This document shows positions 15,418-44,561 of a DNA stretch of 45,765 bases, piece by piece. The notes beneath the pieces are model-generated. The model was given only the letters and a program-made list of their open reading frames with translations, had not been told where the DNA came from and did not search any database. Within the stretch, counting starts at the first letter, position 1. Each line of letters starts with the position of its first letter. The DNA is from Chloroflexota bacterium (lineage in GTDB: Bacteria; Chloroflexota; UBA6077; SHYK01), in NCBI GenBank assembly GCA_009377635.1, contig WHTR01000002.1:45300-91064 (forward strand), given 5' to 3'. The translations under genes were made by a program, and so were the position numbers.

Positions 15418-15981
15418 GTGGAAAATCTCCCATCCAGCGAAGGCACCGAATCTCTGCACATCAATCCCTACACGGTCAAGGAACACGGTTGGCGCGGGCT
15501 CACGATTCCAGGCAGCCGCAAGCGGAAGTGGTACACGGTCCTCCACAACGACAAGCTCCTCGTGACCGCGCTCCTGACAGGCATCCCCGGCGAATACGGC
15601 CTCCGTCACTCCCACGAGACGGGAGAGCTCTCGATCCACTTCCGCGACGAGATGCGACCGGAGGTGACGTGGAATCCCCCGGGGGTCCTCCACGGAGGGA
15701 TGCCCCAACCAAAGGCGAATCTCGCGGACGCGGTGGCGGCCAGCCTGAAGCAGCGCGGGGCAGCGCTCCAGGCCGGCAATGCCGACGTGGCCCAACTGGT
15801 TGGCATGATCACCGAGCTGCAGCAGCAGATGGCGGAGCTCCAGCAACAGCTACGGGATGCCGTCAGCCCGGGCCCGGCCCCGCGGGTCATCATCGACATC
15901 ACGTTCCCGCCCTTCCGAACGCTGATCGACGATCCAGCGCTTCCGGAGCAGCGCGTTGTCACCGGCCAGTGGTACGACTGA
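15418..15981 (+). CDS. conserved-looking hypothetical protein, possible cupin-like core plus C-terminal coiled coil
   Basis: GTG start after AGGAGAG; GLRHSHETGELSIHF...PPGVLHGGMP; LVGMITELQQQMAELQQQLRD. Confidence 0.5.
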   Translation: MENLPSSEGTESLHINPYTVKEHGWRGLTIPGSRKRKWYTVLHNDKLLVTALLTGIPGEYGLRHSHETGELSIHFRDEMRPEVTWNPPGVLHGGMPQPKANLADAVAASLKQRGAALQAGNADVAQLVGMITELQQQMAELQQQLRDAVSPGPAPRVIIDITFPPFRTLIDDPALPEQRVVTGQWYD

Positions 15982-15998
15982 ACGCTGAGCCGCGTGCC

Positions 15999-16502
15999 TT
16001 GAGAGTCAGGTGGGCGGCAGTGTCGCTTGCGCTGGTGGCGGTCATGGCGTGCGCGTCGACAACGCCCGGCCCGCCCAGCGAGCGAGCTGACAGCGCTGCA
16101 CCGTCGGAGCCAGCGGTCCACCGCCTCGTACTCAGCGTACCGGCTCCAGGCACCGAAAGCAACACCGTGCGCCTCATTGTGCAGGGCGAGGCGTGGCAGC
16201 TCAGGCCGATGTACGAGCACCTCATCCGTGTCGATTCGACCACCGGTCAGTTCATCCCCATGCTCTCCACCAAGTGGAGCGTGGAGCCGGACGGCAAGTC
16301 CTACCGTTTCAAGCTTCGCCACGGCGTCCAGTTCCACGGTGGTTACGGCGAGCTCACCGCCAAAGACGGCGTCTTTTCGTGGCAAGTCACGACGAAGGAA
16401 GACGCGATCGGCGCCAATCCAAAGCTGATCGTACTCGACGAGCCAGTCTCGGCACTCGACGTGTCGATCCAAGCGCAGATCATGAATCTCCTCAGGAGTT
16501 GA
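15999..16502 (+). pseudogene. chimeric remnant: N-terminus of family-5 ABC substrate-binding lipoprotein fused in frame to Walker B segment of an OppD/DppF-type ATPase
   Basis: Lipobox VMAC, YEHLIRVDSTTGQFIPMLSTKWSVEPDGKSYRFKLRHGVQFHGG (SBP_bac_5), then ANPKLIVLDEPVSALDVSIQAQIMNLL (ATPase). Confidence 0.82.
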
Positions 16503-34323: not shown

Positions 34324-36633
34324 TCAGCTTGGGCGGAGCGCCGTGCACTGCTGCGGATCGAAACAGACGTACACCGTGCTCCCCAGGCTCAAGTTGTCGA
34401 CGCCGCTGATCCGCGCCTGCAGCGAGACACCCTGAACGTTCACGAAGCACTCCCAGGCGTCGCCCACGTACAGCAGCGCCTCGAGCGCGCCGGGGAAGCT
34501 GTTCTTCCCCATCGCAGTGGGGTCGTCCGTCAGCCGCACGTGCTCAGGACGGACGGATACGAGCACTGACTCCCCCTGCTGCACATCGGGGGGAAGCATG
34601 CAGGTTACCTCCCCGATCGACATGGCGACCGTCCCCAACTCGCCATCCGTACGGACGACCCGGCCGTCCATCAGGTTGACCTTGCCGACGAACTGAGCGA
34701 TGAATGGCGAGACGGGGCGCATGTAGATGTCGGTCGGGCTTCCCTCCTGAATCACGAGCCCGTCGCGCATCACGGCGATGCGGTCCGACATGGAAAGCGC
34801 CTCCATCTGGTCGTGGGTCACGTAGAGGGTCGTCAGACGCAGACGCGTAACGAGCGCGCGCAGCTCCTTGCGCATGCCCTCGCGCAGCCGGGCGTCCAGG
34901 TTGCTGAGCGGCTCGTCCAGCAGGAGGACCCGCGGCTCGCTCACGAGCGCGCGCGCCACGGCGACGCGCTGCTGCTGGCCACCGCTCAGATTCGGGGCGC
35001 TCCAAAGCTCCCAGATCATCGTCGCGAGCACTGCATTTCCGGTCGTGCGGAGCAGCAGGGGGTACGTGAAGTCCCGGATACTGTGTGCGAAGATCCAGAG
35101 CCACCCATTGAGAATGGCGGGGAATACCAGCGGGACGATGACCTTGCGGAAAATCGTCAGCGGCGTCGCACCGCTCGTGATCCCGGCCTCCTCGAGCTCC
35201 TTCCCGATCTGCAGGATCGCCGGGCCGAGGAGACGCACACCGAACGGGAGGAACCCGACGACGTGGCCGATCACGATGATCCACACTGTGCCGAAGACGG
35301 GCGTGCGAATGAGCGTGACGAGCAGCGCGAGCGCCATGACGATGCCCGGGACGGCGAGCGGCATGAAGGCGAGGACCTCCAGCAGTCTGGTGCCCTTGAG
35401 CTTGATCCGTGTGGAGGCCCACGCGACCAGCGCCGCGAGCCCAATGCAAAGCGTGGGCGCGACGGCCACGAGGAGCGCGGTATTGCCGAGCGATCCTACC
35501 ACGCGCGCGCTGTCAAAGATGAACCGGTAGTTGTCAGCGGTGAGCAACTGAAAGGCGTTGACGGACAGCGGCTGATAGAAGCGCAGCATCGACGCCCACA
35601 GCAGTGCGAGGAAGGGGAGGCCAATCTTCACGAAGAAGATACCGAACACGAGCAACGCGGCCGAGCTCTTCCATCGGCCGAGGTCCAAGCGCGATGGCCG
35701 GTACCCTTTGCCCGTGATGACCTGAAACTTCTCTGCACGGCGCGTGACCCAAAAGGAGAGGGCGAGCAACGCGAGTCCGACGACGAGCGCAATCAGGGCG
35801 AACGTGGACGCGAGGCCATAGTGGACCATGCCGAATTCGGGCTGGGTGAGGAGGAATACGCGCACGCTGAGCACGGGGATGCCTGCCGTGAGCCCGATGG
35901 CCAGAGGGAACTCGAACAGTTGGATCAGGGTGACCATGTAGTACACGGCGACGGTCAGAATACCCGGAGTCAGCAGGGGCAGGGACACGTAGCGCAGCGC
36001 CGTCAGGCGGCTCGCCCCGCTCGCCGTGGCCGCTTCTTCGAACGATGGGTCCATGCGCTGGAAGTACGGCGCTAGGAAGATGAACATGCTACCAGCGAGC
36101 GAGATCCCCGTGACGAGGATCATGCCCGGCATCGTGAAGATGTCGATGGGCCCGCTCGTGGCGGATGAACCGACAGCGCCGCGGATGAGCACGTTCAGCA
36201 GCCCGGTGTTGGGGCGACCGAGGAGGATCCAGCCAAACGCCGTGACCACCCCCGGCATCGCGAAGGACGCGAGCGCCAGCGGGTATACCGCCTCTCGGAA
36301 CGGGACATTCGTGCGGCCGACCAGCCAGCTCAGGAGCGCACCCAGCGAGAAGCCGATGGCCAGGCTGCCCACGGCATAGACCAGCGTGTTGACGAACAGG
36401 CGATACGTCAGCGGATCAGCGAAGGTGACGCGGTAGTTCTCGAGGCTGAAGCCCTTGATCGGGAACGGGAGTCCTTCGCCCGGCTGGACGCTGGCGGTAA
36501 TCATGATGGCTATCGGGACGAGGACGAGCACTGCCAGCAGGAGCCCGGTCCCGTAGACGATCACGTGACGCTGGTCGATCCGCGAACCCCAACCGAGCCG
36601 CCGGATCCCGCGGGCTTGCGGCGTCGTTGCCAT
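34324..36633 (-). pseudogene. ABC transporter chimera: double-permease polypeptide (iron/thiamine/phosphonate-type) fused in frame to the C-terminal half of its ATPase
   Basis: Permease to ATMIWELWSAPN then directly LSGGQQQRVAVARALVSEPRVLLLDEPLSNLDARL...VTHDQMEAL; Walker A absent. Confidence 0.82.
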
Positions 36634-39537: not shown

Positions 39538-40116
39538 ATGGCTCAGGAAATCGTCGTGTTCCACTCCGCTCTCGGTCTGCGCCCGGCCGTACGCGCCTTC
39601 GCGGATCAGCTGCGCGCGGCAGGTCACACTGTACACACACCTGATTGCTTCGACGGCGACGTGTTCGATGACCTCGAGGAGGGCGTGCGCAAGCGGGACA
39701 CGCTCGGCATCCCGGAGCTCATGAGGCGCGCCCAAGCTGCCGTGGCCAATGTCCCGTCCAAGGTTGTGCTCGCAGGATTCTCGATGGGGACCGGCGCGGC
39801 TGAGTTCCTTGCCGCGACGCGCCCCGGGGCCAGGGCGGCCATCCTTATACACGGTGCCTTCGCGCCGGCTGAGTTCGGCATCGAGGCATGGCCTGGTGTA
39901 CCGGCGCAGGTGCACTACGCTGAGAACGACCCGTTGGTCGAGGTCGACCAGATTCTTGCGTTCGAGGCGATGGTGCGGGCGGCGGGCACCTCCGTCGAGG
40001 TGTATTCCTACGACGGCGGTGGTCACCTGTTCGAGGACGCCGGCTGGAAGGGCCATGATCCAGCGGCCGCGCAGCTCATGCTGGAGCGCATCTTGGCGTT
40101 CCTTGGCAGGCTGTGA
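39538..40116 (+). CDS. dienelactone hydrolase family protein
   Basis: AGGAGG SD; VVFHSALGLRPAVRAFADQLRAAGHTVHTPDCFDG, VVLAGFSMGTGAAEFLA, YDGGGHLFED. Confidence 0.85.
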   Translation: MAQEIVVFHSALGLRPAVRAFADQLRAAGHTVHTPDCFDGDVFDDLEEGVRKRDTLGIPELMRRAQAAVANVPSKVVLAGFSMGTGAAEFLAATRPGARAAILIHGAFAPAEFGIEAWPGVPAQVHYAENDPLVEVDQILAFEAMVRAAGTSVEVYSYDGGGHLFEDAGWKGHDPAAAQLMLERILAFLGRL

Positions 40117-40254: not shown

Positions 40255-40491
40255 CGCAGTGCACGGCGATGCGCTGGTTGCGAGGCACCGCGAGTCCAGC
40301 CGTCGCCAGCGCTCCGGCCTCGACGTGGAGGGCTGGGCGTGGGCGATCCCGCGTGCGACGTGATGGTCGCGTGGACGCTCTTCTCCGGCGAAAGCCGGGA
40401 CGTGTTCCGCGCGACTCTGGCGGTCGACGACGCGATCTGGGCGCGAGGTCGCGGCTGGGCACTGTCCTGGGCGCTGATCTTCATCCCCTAC
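40255..40491 (+). pseudogene. aminoglycoside phosphotransferase-family C-terminal remnant, frameshifted
   Basis: VHGDAL ... VGDPACDVMVAWTLFSGESRDVFRATLAVDDAIWARGRGWALSWALIFIPY, cut at transposase-like sequence. Confidence 0.7.
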
Positions 40492-40740
40492 GGGCTCGTG
40501 GCTGGAGCGAACCGGGTCGCGGTAGATGCCTTTGGCGGCCATGCGTTTCCCCCACCGGCGCTCCAACGTCTCGTCGATGCCGAGAACCAACGGACCGGTT
40601 GGGTCGAAGGTCGCCACCAGGAGGCCGAGCAGGACCCGACTGGCCACAAGGCTGGACTACTGCGCGCGATTCAAGACGCGGCAACTGAACAGTGGCACGA
40701 ACGGCGCCAACAGGTGTAGCCTGGCGAGCGGTTTTGGCAT
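40492..40740 (-). mobile_element. remnant of a DDE (IS701/IS4-like) transposase gene
   Basis: FVPLFSCRV...SRVLLGLLVATFDPTGPLVLGIDETLERRWGKRMAAKGIYRDPVRSSH, with in-frame stops, internal deletion and no 3' end. Confidence 0.72.
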
Positions 40741-40743
40741 CGC

Positions 40744-40905
40744 GCGTTGCTCCTGCGAGCTTGGGGTCTCCGCTCGAACATGCGCGGATGGGACGCCATG
40801 TACGTTGCACTCGCCGATTCCTTTCAGGCAACACTGCTCGCCTCCGATACTCGTGTCGCTCGGGCGTCAGGCCCACGGTGTACCATCGAGGTCATCCAGC
40901 GCATG
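40744..40905 (+). pseudogene. C-terminal fragment of a PIN-domain (VapC-like) toxin
   Basis: LRAWGLRSNMRGWDAMYVALADSFQATLLASDTRVARASGPRCTIEVI; N-terminal half and stop codon absent. Confidence 0.7.
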
Positions 40906-40918
40906 CGTGGCCCGACCG

Positions 40919-42835
40919 ATGATCACGGAAGCCCGCGTCAGACAAATCATCGACAAGGCGATCGACGAGTTCACGGCATCCGAGTCCTTTCAGGACCTCG
41001 TCTCAGGCCGCCTGTCAGTGTCGGCCATGCGGCAATTCATCAGGGCGTGCTTTCTTCCCCATTACCAGTCGACCAGAGTGCTGGCGTTCGAGTATTCGGT
41101 CCACGGTGGACCGCAGTCCGAGCTCCTCCAGCACAACATGCTCGAGGAGATGGGCCTCGACGACGAGGGCATCTCCCACCCGAGCTTACTCGAGGATCTC
41201 GCCCTGGGCGCGGGGTATTCGCCGGACGAGGTGACAGAGCTGATCGAGGCGTCCGGCGAATACGCCCGCGCGTACTACGCACAGCAGATCGCTTTCCCAA
41301 CCTTGCGCGACCTGGGGCTGGCAATCCTGCTCGAATCCTCCGCCTTCGAGTGCTTCCTGTCGCGCCACGCCGACCAGATCGGGAGCGCGCTCGAGCAGCA
41401 TTTTGGCTTCCCAAAGGAGCGACTGCGCTGGTTCGCTCTCCACGGTGAGCTGGACGTTCGCCACGCCGAGGAAGCGCTCAGCGTGGTTCGGGGGTACGTG
41501 GACTTTCACCGCCTGGATGACGCGCATTTCGAACGCATCGCCCGCGCGACGTTTGCTCACAGTCCATTCCTGTCGCGCTATTTCGCGGACAGTCACCAGG
41601 CCATGCAGGCGCCCCAGGCTCCCGGGGCATTCCAGGCGTCCCGCGCACCCTCGCGCCTCATCCACGCGCAACCCACGGAGGGTCAGATCAGCGCGGTGAC
41701 CATCTACCGCCTGGACATTCCCTTCCGCAGCGCGTTTCGCCACGCTCTCGCCAACCGGACAGCCAGTGATTCCGTGATCGTCTGCATCCAGGACTCCGCC
41801 GGGGTCCGGGGGTATGGCGAGGGCATCGCTCGGGAATACGTGACGGGAGAGACGACCGCGACGATGGCTGAGGTCCTGGCGACCGCGCTGGCGCCGAGGT
41901 TGCTTGGACACGTCATCGACGACGATTGGTCGCTCGCCACGCTGCGGGACCTCTTCCGTGGTTGGCTGGCCGCAATGCCAGCGCTCAAAGGGGGCGCACC
42001 CCCCAACGCGGCCTGTTGCGCCCTGGAGCTGGCGATCATTGACTGGCTCCTCCGGCGCTCTCGGAGGTCCGCCGCGGATGTTCTGCCGCCCGCCCGTCAA
42101 GAGGTCGAATACAGTGGCGTGATCCCGGTGGAGGGACTAGCAGAGGTGGCCGCGCTGGCCCGTCGCTTCACCGAATTCGGCATCGCGCGTCTCAAGGTCA
42201 AGGTTGGCGTGGGGGATGACCTCGCCCGGCTGCGCACCGCGCGGGAGGTAGCGGGAGAGGGCGCGCAGCTCCGGGTTGACGCGAACGGCGCCTGGAGCGC
42301 GGAGGAGGCCATTGAGCGGTTGCGCCTGCTCCAGACGGTCGGGATCGAGTGCGTCGAGCAACCGGTCAGCGCGGCGGCGGGGGCGAATGCGCTGCGCAGA
42401 GTACGGGAGGCGACTGGCCTGCCGATCGCAGCCGATGAGTCCCTGGTGACCGTGGACGACGCACGGCAGTTGGCGGCGGCTCACGCTTGTGACATCTTCA
42501 ACATCAGGGTGTCCAAGAATGGTGGCCTCACTGGCGCCCTGGCCATTGCAGAGGTCGCGGAAGAGGCGGGCATCCGTGTGCAGGTCGGCGCCCAGGTCGG
42601 TGAAACTGCCATTCTCACGGCGGCGGGCCGCCATCTCGCCGCGCACGTGCCGGACCTCGTGTTCGCCGAGGGCTCCTTCGGGACACTCCTGCTGCAGGAA
42701 GACATCGCTGAGCAGGAGCTCCGCTTCGGCCCGGGCGGGCTAGCGCCCATACTGCGAGGGCCGGGCCTCGGGGTCGAGTGCCGACACGAGCAGATCGAGC
42801 GCTTTGCAGTCGAAATCATCGAGGTACGGGGCTAA
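40919..42835 (+). CDS. two-domain fusion: heme-oxygenase-like diiron (HDO/Haem_oxygenas_2-like) domain + enolase superfamily, muconate-lactonizing/dipeptide-epimerase subgroup
   Basis: HDO pattern HNMLEEMG...ISHPSLLEDL...LLESSAFECFLSRH...WFALHGELDVRHAEEAL; enolase pattern RLKVKVGVG, RVDANGAW, VEQPV, ADESL, NIRVSKNGGL. Confidence 0.82.
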   Translation: MITEARVRQIIDKAIDEFTASESFQDLVSGRLSVSAMRQFIRACFLPHYQSTRVLAFEYSVHGGPQSELLQHNMLEEMGLDDEGISHPSLLEDLALGAGYSPDEVTELIEASGEYARAYYAQQIAFPTLRDLGLAILLESSAFECFLSRHADQIGSALEQHFGFPKERLRWFALHGELDVRHAEEALSVVRGYVDFHRLDDAHFERIARATFAHSPFLSRYFADSHQAMQAPQAPGAFQASRAPSRLIHAQPTEGQISAVTIYRLDIPFRSAFRHALANRTASDSVIVCIQDSAGVRGYGEGIAREYVTGETTATMAEVLATALAPRLLGHVIDDDWSLATLRDLFRGWLAAMPALKGGAPPNAACCALELAIIDWLLRRSRRSAADVLPPARQEVEYSGVIPVEGLAEVAALARRFTEFGIARLKVKVGVGDDLARLRTAREVAGEGAQLRVDANGAWSAEEAIERLRLLQTVGIECVEQPVSAAAGANALRRVREATGLPIAADESLVTVDDARQLAAAHACDIFNIRVSKNGGLTGALAIAEVAEEAGIRVQVGAQVGETAILTAAGRHLAAHVPDLVFAEGSFGTLLLQEDIAEQELRFGPGGLAPILRGPGLGVECRHEQIERFAVEIIEVRG

Positions 42836-42860
42836 GCGACACGACGAGGCCAGACGCGGC

Positions 42861-44561
42861 ATGAGCTGGTGGTCGACGATACGAGGGCGGCTGCGCGGCA
42901 GCCAGTGGCGCGGCTGGGCCTTACGCGCATTCTCCCAGCAGGCCTGGAAGCGGTTCGAGGCAGCCGCCCGGCATGCGCCGCAGGCGCAGGCAGATCTCCT
43001 CTTCCGCTTGGTTCGTGCAAACCAGGACTCCCGCTTTGGCCGCGACCACGAGTTCAGGAACATTCGGAGCCTGGCCGATTATCGGTCTGCCGTTCCGATC
43101 GGAGACTACGAGCGCTTTCGTCCCTATGTCGACCGAATCGTGGCGGGCGAGGCGGACGCCCTCACGAGCGACCCGCCCTACATGCTCGCGCAGACCAGCG
43201 GGACGACCGGCGTGCCAAAGCTCATCCCGGTCACATTGGGACAGCGAGCCGCGGCGGCGGCGGCGACCCAGGTCTGGTTTTATCGCGCCCTGCTCGACCA
43301 CCCCCGGCTCCTGGACGGGCAAATCCTCGCAATGGTCAGCCCGGCGGTCGAAGGTCACACGCCGGGAGGCCTTCCGTACGGGTCTGCCTCGGGACACCTG
43401 TACCAGAATGCCCCATGGTCGGTTCGCCAGCTCTATGCCATTCCTTATGCCGTGACCGAGATCAAAGATTACGAGGCCCGTTATTACACCGCGATGCGGT
43501 TTGCCCTCCAGCAATTGGTTTCCTTTGTCGGCACCCCCAACCCGAGCACAATTAGCCGGCTGCTCGAGACCGTGAACGCATACCCGGAGGAGTTGATCCG
43601 GGACATCAATGACGGCACACTCTCCGCCCGGTTCGACATCTCCAACGATATCCGAGCGACCCTCGTCCAGCGGTTGGTACCTGACCCAAAACGCGCCGAG
43701 CACCTTCGCGGCCTGGCGGATGCCGCGGGAGCCTTGCGGCCCAAAGACTTCTGGCCTGACTTGCAGTTGGTAGGCTGCTGGAAGGGCGGCTCCGTCGGGG
43801 TTCAACTGCAACGCCTCCAGCAAGTGTTGCCCGCCGGGTTGCCGTTCCGGGACATCGGCTACCTGGCAAGTGAGGCCAATTTGGCCATCCCCATCCAGGG
43901 TGAGGGAGCCGGCGGCGTGCTCGCGGTGGGCTCGAACGTCTACGAGTTCATACCGGAAGACGCGATCGGACACCCTGGATGCCCTGTCCTCCGGTGTGAT
44001 GAGGTTGTCGCAGGCCACACGTACTACGTGGTGATCACGGTGTCCAACGGTCTGTACCGTTATGACATCAACGATGTCGTTCGGGTGAGCGGCTTCTTCT
44101 ATGAGGCGCCAATTGTGGAATTCGTGCGGAAGGGCCGGGACATGACCAGTATTGGCGGAGAGAAGATCCACGTGTCGCAGGTCACGGGCGCCATCGATGC
44201 AGCCCAGCGCGAGAGCGGTTGCGCTATTCGCCAGTACCGCGCCGTCGCCTCGGCCGCGCACAACCGCTACGAGTTCCTGGTCGAGCTGGAGGATGGTACC
44301 GATGAGGCTACGCTCGTCCGGTTGCTTGCCGCGATCGACCGCATTCTCGGGGAGCTCAACATCGAGTACGCGCAGAAGCGGGCATCACGGCGGCTCGACG
44401 ACCCTTGCCTGCGCGTGATGCAAGCCGGGTGGTCGGAGGCTGCGTATCTGAAACGCGTGGCCGCGGGAGCGCGCGACACGCAGTTCAAGCCGACGCTCCT
44501 ATCCGACCAGTTCGACGAGGGGGAGACGGACCAGATCCGGGTCACGATCGAGCTGCGGTAA
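42861..44561 (+). CDS. GH3-family acyl-adenylate amide synthetase
   Basis: YMLAQTSGTTGVPKLIPVT, GYLASEANLAIPI, YVVITVSNGLYRYDINDVVRVSGF, FVRKGRDMTSIGGEKI. Confidence 0.88.
   Translation: MSWWSTIRGRLRGSQWRGWALRAFSQQAWKRFEAAARHAPQAQADLLFRLVRANQDSRFGRDHEFRNIRSLADYRSAVPIGDYERFRPYVDRIVAGEADALTSDPPYMLAQTSGTTGVPKLIPVTLGQRAAAAAATQVWFYRALLDHPRLLDGQILAMVSPAVEGHTPGGLPYGSASGHLYQNAPWSVRQLYAIPYAVTEIKDYEARYYTAMRFALQQLVSFVGTPNPSTISRLLETVNAYPEELIRDINDGTLSARFDISNDIRATLVQRLVPDPKRAEHLRGLADAAGALRPKDFWPDLQLVGCWKGGSVGVQLQRLQQVLPAGLPFRDIGYLASEANLAIPIQGEGAGGVLAVGSNVYEFIPEDAIGHPGCPVLRCDEVVAGHTYYVVITVSNGLYRYDINDVVRVSGFFYEAPIVEFVRKGRDMTSIGGEKIHVSQVTGAIDAAQRESGCAIRQYRAVASAAHNRYEFLVELEDGTDEATLVRLLAAIDRILGELNIEYAQKRASRRLDDPCLRVMQAGWSEAAYLKRVAAGARDTQFKPTLLSDQFDEGETDQIRVTIELR

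Follow-up and report, generated by a model that had tools for sequence, protein, structure and literature searches.

A heme-oxygenase-like diiron domain fused to an enolase beside a GH3 ligase: a candidate oxidative form of a conserved enolase-GH3 cassette

We analyzed a 45,765-nucleotide stretch of a Chloroflexota bacterium (GenBank assembly GCA_009377635.1, contig WHTR01000002.1, positions 45,300 to 91,064; hereafter the window, with coordinates counted from its first nucleotide), in which a heme-oxygenase-like diiron (HDO) domain and an enolase-superfamily domain are encoded as one protein next to a GH3-family ligase. The draft genome from which it comes spans 3.5 Mb over 343 contigs and is 84% complete. 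The fused open reading frame (ORF; 40919-42835, plus strand) comprises 638 codons and a stop, and holds in a single frame the HDO domain (residues 1-231; 40919-41611), a Pro/Ala/Gln-rich linker (residues 232-255; 41612-41683) and an enolase domain of the muconate-lactonizing-enzyme subgroup (residues 256-638; 41684-42835). After a gap of 25 bp, a second plus-strand ORF (42861-44561, 566 codons) encodes a GH3-family adenylate-forming acyl-amido synthetase. The length of 638 residues presupposes a start at ATG 40919; the frame stays open as far back as 40526 (769 residues), but homology of the fusion protein begins at this ATG and not at 40526. In the full-length AlphaFold2 model, the linker (about residues 231-255, approximately 25 residues) had a predicted local distance difference test score (pLDDT) below 50, i.e., it is unstructured; its frame contains no stop codon.

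The HDO domain was matched by Pfam Haem_oxygenas_2 (PF14518) over residues 38-205 (E 1.9e-15). In the alignment with 16 relatives of the same class, E77 (codon at 41147), H87 (41177), H175 (41441) and H182 (41462) were invariant, and E144 (41348) and D179 (41453), both retained in the homologue of a planctomycete (G404), complete a set of six ligands. The canonical HDO set consists of three histidines and three Glu/Asp residues (PMC13185094); the aligned window domain likewise has three histidines and three carboxylates, with the diiron ligands as in MboA and CADD. As the HDO part was of low confidence in the full-length model, a separate model of the domain was used for what is said of it here; it is a helical bundle with a mean pLDDT of 81. 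Foldseek matched this model to CADD, UndA, HrmI and FlcD, in agreement with a seven-helix heme-oxygenase-like bundle. CADD, the self-sacrificing 4-aminobenzoate synthase, was the best match in the PDB (E 4e-6, TM 0.67/0.75; range 0.67-0.76), and shares a weak sequence match and the HxxxDxxH metal motif; however, its identity is 18%, the window domain scores 21 against the NCBIfam CADD cut-off of 200, and CADD is a stand-alone protein. UndA, a diiron fatty-acid decarboxylase/desaturase, was the second match and takes a carboxylate substrate at its diiron site, but it is 14% identical to the window HDO and is not fused to an enolase. We read the domain as an intact predicted diiron domain with a complete ligand set. 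The sequence-only reading, made without searches, had described one 638-codon HDO-linker-enolase ORF with a GH3 gene 25 bp downstream and a plausible E/H/E/H/D/H ligand series; the ORF coordinates and Pfam confirmed the former, and the alignment the latter.

No relative of the window HDO was found among viral contigs, none matched it among the PLSDB plasmids, and no HDO of the window type was found in a Verrucomicrobiota-centred sample of 291 genomes, a search that had no positive control. Genes of the PF14518 type are multiplied in G009, with 14 places, and to a smaller degree in the genome of the window itself, with 6, and are absent from most genomes of the class.

The enolase domain was matched by Pfam MR_MLE_C over residues 409-623 (E 1.4e-51), and residues 256-638 were modeled with a pLDDT of about 76-98 per 10-residue block, with the first strand beginning at 257. 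In a 21-row alignment K426-x-K428, D454, E480 and D506/E507 were invariant or nearly so, and K533 was invariant within the clade of this enolase; the strand-2 KxK, the D-E-D metal ligands (D454, E480, D506) and the strand-6 lysine (K533) place the domain in the muconate-lactonizing-enzyme subgroup. The nearest folds found by Foldseek (TM by target 0.89-0.93) were dipeptide epimerases (1jpm, 3q45), N-acylamino acid racemases and N-succinyl-Arg/Lys racemase (2p88), which share the KxK, D-E-D and K catalytic set. Identity to these enzymes is 26-29%, and the window clade differs from them in its own RxYxTGE loop, a VGE insertion, an EG segment and the lack of a DxD motif.

The ligase contains all three domains of the family, GH3 (E 7.1e-70), GH3_M and GH3_C (PF03321, PF23571, PF23572). 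It carries the nucleotide-binding motifs S113-G114-T-T-G (43197), K120, S337-E338 (43869) and Y401-x3-D405, so that both the domains and the motifs expected of a GH3 acyl acid amido synthetase are present; S113, G114, K120, S337, E338, R400, Y401 and D405 were invariant in a 6-row GH3 alignment. It resembles the plant enzymes JAR1 and GH3.8 in its full-length fold and motifs, but the matches to these plant GH3 structures in the PDB have E-values of only around 1e-25, and the window protein is bacterial and operon-borne. GH3 enzymes adenylate an acid and then pass it to an amine; bacterial OlsH, a GH3-like acyl-amino acid synthetase, makes N-acyl ornithine in the ornithine-lipid pathway of Singulisphaera acidiphila, where its operon includes the alpha/beta-hydrolase O-acyltransferase OlsI, and its S115 is required for activity (PMC12493201). 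On our reading of the alignment, a serine retained in the nucleotide motifs of the window GH3 would be equivalent to OlsH S115. The window GH3 nevertheless scores no more than 102.9 bits where the OlsH equivalog (NF052613) requires 620, and the GH3 proteins of the related cassettes described below score 99-140 bits, so they are not OlsH orthologues. Among PLSDB plasmids only distant GH3 proteins (23-31%) were found, and the annotated neighbourhoods (Streptomyces polyketide synthase (PKS), Citrobacter radical-SAM, Bacteroides) had no enolase. In one of these loci (L055, 11887-13557), the GH3 gene lies within a type I PKS cluster of a Streptomyces plasmid that also carries thrS.

Conservation of the pair was assessed first in the phylum of the window. 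When 101 related genomes were searched with one sequence as query, four enolases ranked clearly above the rest (G011, E 4e-77; G007, 1e-70; G084, 1e-65; G015, 4e-44; the next at 3e-35), and a GH3 gene adjoins all four. With a clade profile, the enolase clade was detected in 5 of the 399 genomes of the phylum at 494-596 bits, with nothing else above 232 bits and an adjacent GH3 gene in every case; the profile was built from these five rows plus one, which flatters the absolute scores, but this alone does not explain the gap. GH3 genes at E 1e-20 occur in just 9 of the 399 genomes, including these four and the window. The chance of such an overlap would be 1.5e-9 if the genomes were independent; as they are related, the figure is only a guide. 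The genome region of one such enolase-GH3 pair also holds, at L033 2-7346, a second GH3 gene, 38% identical to that of the window, together with an alpha/beta hydrolase, two NAD epimerase-type short-chain dehydrogenases/reductases (SDRs), an enoyl-CoA hydratase and an AMP ligase.

The enolase clade was also widespread among 393 Planctomycetota genomes; across the two phyla, enolase and GH3 genes are neighbours in 16 genomes, directly adjacent in 13. Six planctomycetes near the branch of the window (G419, G600, G536, G593, G574, G498) carry hydrolase-enolase-GH3-hydrolase operons. An alpha/beta hydrolase adjoins the GH3 gene, as in the OlsH/OlsI arrangement, in these six and in G007, G084 and G403, i.e., the operon with a hydrolase recurs in most relatives of the cassette, and the planctomycete distribution is a further likeness; however, the described OlsG-OlsH-OlsI operon has neither an enolase nor an HDO. 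In the window, the HDO stands in the hydrolase slot, and the only hydrolase nearby is a dienelactone-hydrolase-family protein (39541-40116, plus strand) about 800 bp upstream of the fusion, possibly a stand-in for the Hydrolase_4 partner of the relatives. In G403, a hydrolase-GH3-enolase arrangement is joined by an AMP ligase, UbiD, an SDR and a fumarate-reductase-like gene; G015 of the other phylum has a similar set. A second, UbiD-containing type of cluster is seen in these two phyla (L036, 479-10909; L138, 1973-11466), in which GH3, enolase, AMP ligase and UbiD occur with an FAD reductase, an SDR and a hydrolase. In G677, the enolase and a hydrolase face the GH3 gene beside a reducing PKS with a thioesterase, a PanE-like gene and an MMPL transporter, and ketosynthases lie near the loci of G457 and G779.

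The closest counterpart of the window was found in the planctomycete G404 (L131), where genes for an HDO (263 residues), an enolase (383), a GH3 ligase (556) and a leucine-carboxyl-methyltransferase-type protein (296) are co-directional and separate, with successive four-base overlaps (ATGA, GTGA, TTGA); the methyltransferase as an operon member is a further likeness of this locus to the OlsH/OlsI pathway. Its HDO is 34% identical to that of the window over 229 residues (E 4e-30), compared with 13-23% for the other HDOs, and its enolase is 41% identical. Placed end to end, the G404 HDO and enolase cover almost all of the window protein in the alignment; the one large difference is the extra linker, which the unfused pair lacks. 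A window-type HDO was found in no other of 345 Planctomycetota genomes.

The enolase and GH3 trees have several groups in common, namely (G007,(G011,G084)), (G403,G015), (G457,(G677,G779)) and the group of six planctomycetes with the operon, and GH3-less rows also fall within the G457/G677/G779 group of the enolase tree. Pairwise identities of the two proteins were correlated (Mantel r 0.934, 0 of 5000 permutations), in part owing to a common species history. The concatenated tree placed the window and G404 as sisters (92/94, slightly under the starred support level) in an eight-row group with the six planctomycetes (96/99). The simplest history, which we infer from these trees, is a single gain of the HDO on the branch of the window and G404, followed by its fusion to the enolase in the lineage of the window.

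Because the neighbourhood is conserved and G404 carries the genes unfused and in the same order, HDO, enolase and GH3 very probably form a real, apparently undescribed biosynthetic unit rather than a deletion chimera. The sequence-only reading had looked to other genomes for the same fusion or the same GH3 neighbour: the neighbour is conserved, whereas the fusion has so far been seen in one genome only. It had also placed the three activities in one pathway for an amino-acid-derived acid. Adjacency, the agreeing trees and G404 uphold the single pathway; for the product and the chemistry we can offer only a proposal.

We propose, tentatively but as a serious possibility, that the window encodes an oxidative variant of the conserved enolase-GH3 cassette and makes a modified acyl-amino-acid (amino-lipid-like) metabolite. 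The GH3 enzyme would adenylate a fatty or polyketide acid and couple the activated acid to an amino acid; by analogy with OlsH this step is probable, and fatty or polyketide acids would fit the conserved hydrolase partners and the PKS with a thioesterase at the G677 locus. Since the nearest folds racemise or epimerise N-acylated amino acids, the substrate of the enolase may be the GH3 product; the enolase would then take the alpha-proton of the N-acyl amino acid and epimerise it or eliminate from it, although action on the alpha-carbon of the conjugate is a rather doubtful part of the proposal. In several HDOs the iron is also bound by the carboxylate of the substrate (PMC13185094). The diiron site of the window HDO, which would take the place of the alpha/beta hydrolase present in most relatives, might bind the carboxylate of the conjugate or of its acid precursor and, with O2, desaturate, hydroxylate or decarboxylate it. 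The most economical assumption is that the acid or acyl-amino acid is altered in an O2-dependent reaction, and we regard oxidation of the conjugate or its precursor as a tentative possibility. In the fused protein, the oxidised intermediate would stay close to the enolase. The protein could be a covalent bifunctional enzyme in which an acyl-amino acid made by GH3 undergoes O2-dependent oxidation and enolate chemistry in succession, and could represent an oxidative branch of an undescribed enolase-GH3 natural-product family common to planctomycetes and the phylum of the window; we put this forward with some reserve.

Several observations weigh against this proposal. The fused form is known from a single draft genome, and an outer planctomycete branch of the enolase has no GH3 gene at all. 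The scores of the enolase and GH3 are all far under the equivalog cut-offs, so substrates cannot be transferred from known enzymes. Dipeptide epimerases carry a DxD motif at the last barrel strand; it is absent from the enolase clade (window AEGSFGTLLL versus DF-DAPLML in 1jpm), which is thus set apart from these epimerases. The best NCBIfam profile for the enolases of the window, G011 and G007 is the muconate cycloisomerase subfamily, the UbiD, AMP ligase and fumarate-reductase-like partners of some relatives also fit other chemistry, and the oxygenases, amidohydrolases and xanthine-dehydrogenase-type genes of the window are typical of catabolism.

One alternative concerns the fusion alone: the cassette may be real while the fused frame is accidental, two normally separate genes having been joined by loss of a stop codon or by an indel, whether in the cell or during assembly. 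Searches of the genomes of the window's phylum and of Planctomycetota found no second fused HDO-enolase, the G404 genes are separate with an ATGA overlap, the assembly is a draft, and other ORFs of the window (34324-36633 and 15489-16502) are chimeric. However, both domains are full length, the linker is plausible, and a separate enolase would need ATG 41603 for a normal start. The only nearby in-frame starts are this ATG and GTG 41696; because the enolase homology and first strand begin at residues 256-257, upstream of GTG 41696, a separately translated enolase of normal length is hard to construct. We consider an accidental frame unlikely, if far from negligible.

Similarly unlikely, in our view, is that the enolase takes the free acid as its substrate and converts it by cycloisomerisation, lactonisation or dehydration prior to ligation, with the HDO oxidising the acid first and the GH3 enzyme finally capping it with an amino acid. 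The top muconate cycloisomerase score would fit this order of events, as would the C-terminal EGSxGxLLL segment of the clade, which is closer to the muconate enzymes than to the DFD of 1jpm, and the UbiD, AMP ligase and SDR added in some relatives. Meanwhile, the muconate cycloisomerase score of the window enolase is 154.4 bits against a cut-off of 334.95 (TIGR02534), no catechol dioxygenase lies in its conserved neighbourhood, a further difference from muconate and chloromuconate cycloisomerases, and by fold it is closest to N-acyl amino acid racemases and dipeptide epimerases; with all scores far below the family cut-offs, neither side is decisive.

It is improbable that the three proteins form a catabolic module that breaks down an aromatic or other acid. 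The region at 14061-39231, likely catabolic, holds three Rieske/LigXa-type oxygenases, amidohydrolases, a 3-hydroxyacyl-CoA dehydrogenase and a molybdopterin enzyme, and together with the dienelactone-hydrolase-family protein it gives this alternative its appeal. Yet GH3 spends ATP on amide formation, a biosynthetic step, and no catabolic neighbour is conserved with the cassette, while PKS, ketosynthase, methyltransferase and hydrolase genes are; the first three of these and MMPL are neighbours of the cassette in relatives and speak for biosynthesis rather than catabolism. Finally, a deletion chimera of functionally unlinked genes, suggested by deletion chimeras that the sequence-only reading noted elsewhere in the window, is all but ruled out by the colinear unfused operon of G404, which belongs to another phylum, and by the lack of truncation in either domain.

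Two such chimeras were seen in the window. In the minus-strand ORF at 34324-36633, a deletion chimera, ABC permease domains are fused to the C-terminal portion of a PotA-like ATPase that lacks its Walker A half, and in the plus-strand ORF at 15489-16502 the start of an SBP_bac_5 domain runs into an ABC-ATPase-like end, the latter recognized by eye. Both are truncated at the join, unlike the HDO-enolase ORF; the sequence-only reading had drawn the same contrast, describing both domains as intact around the linker, and the domain models and the colinearity of G404 bear it out.

None of the three components, the HDO fold, the enolase subgroup or GH3, is new in itself. We found no description of the enolase-GH3 cassette, its HDO variant or the HDO-enolase fusion in the open-access literature, an absence that is weak since subscription papers lie mostly outside it, and the same literature contained no gene cluster combining an HDO, or a muconate cycloisomerase, with GH3. 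Papers on stieleriacine (N-acyl dehydrotyrosine) and alkylresorcinol mention neither an enolase nor GH3. Bacterial GH3 was tied to a lipid pathway only recently, with OlsH, and the role of other bacterial GH3s was left open (PMC12493201). A partnership in which the enolase is constant and the hydrolase, HDO, methyltransferase or PKS varies provides a testable rule for a set of GH3 clusters. HDOs perform unusual oxidations; here, the gene order and one fusion with an enolase beside an amide ligase narrow the HDO substrate to an acid or acyl-amino acid, which makes new chemistry directly assayable.

A role in anti-phage defence was considered and rejected, as PADLOC gave no match. Just upstream of the HDO start (40380-40900), some pieces resemble, by eye, an IS701-type transposase (minus strand) and a VapC C-terminus (plus strand); Pfam matched neither. 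At three loci of the outer, GH3-less enolase branch (L144, L145, L148), a neighbouring gene resembles, by eye, the hopanoid radical-SAM enzyme HpnH. A short minus-strand ORF near the G404 cassette (L131, 12622-13077) matched the helical lobe of Csx12/Cas9.

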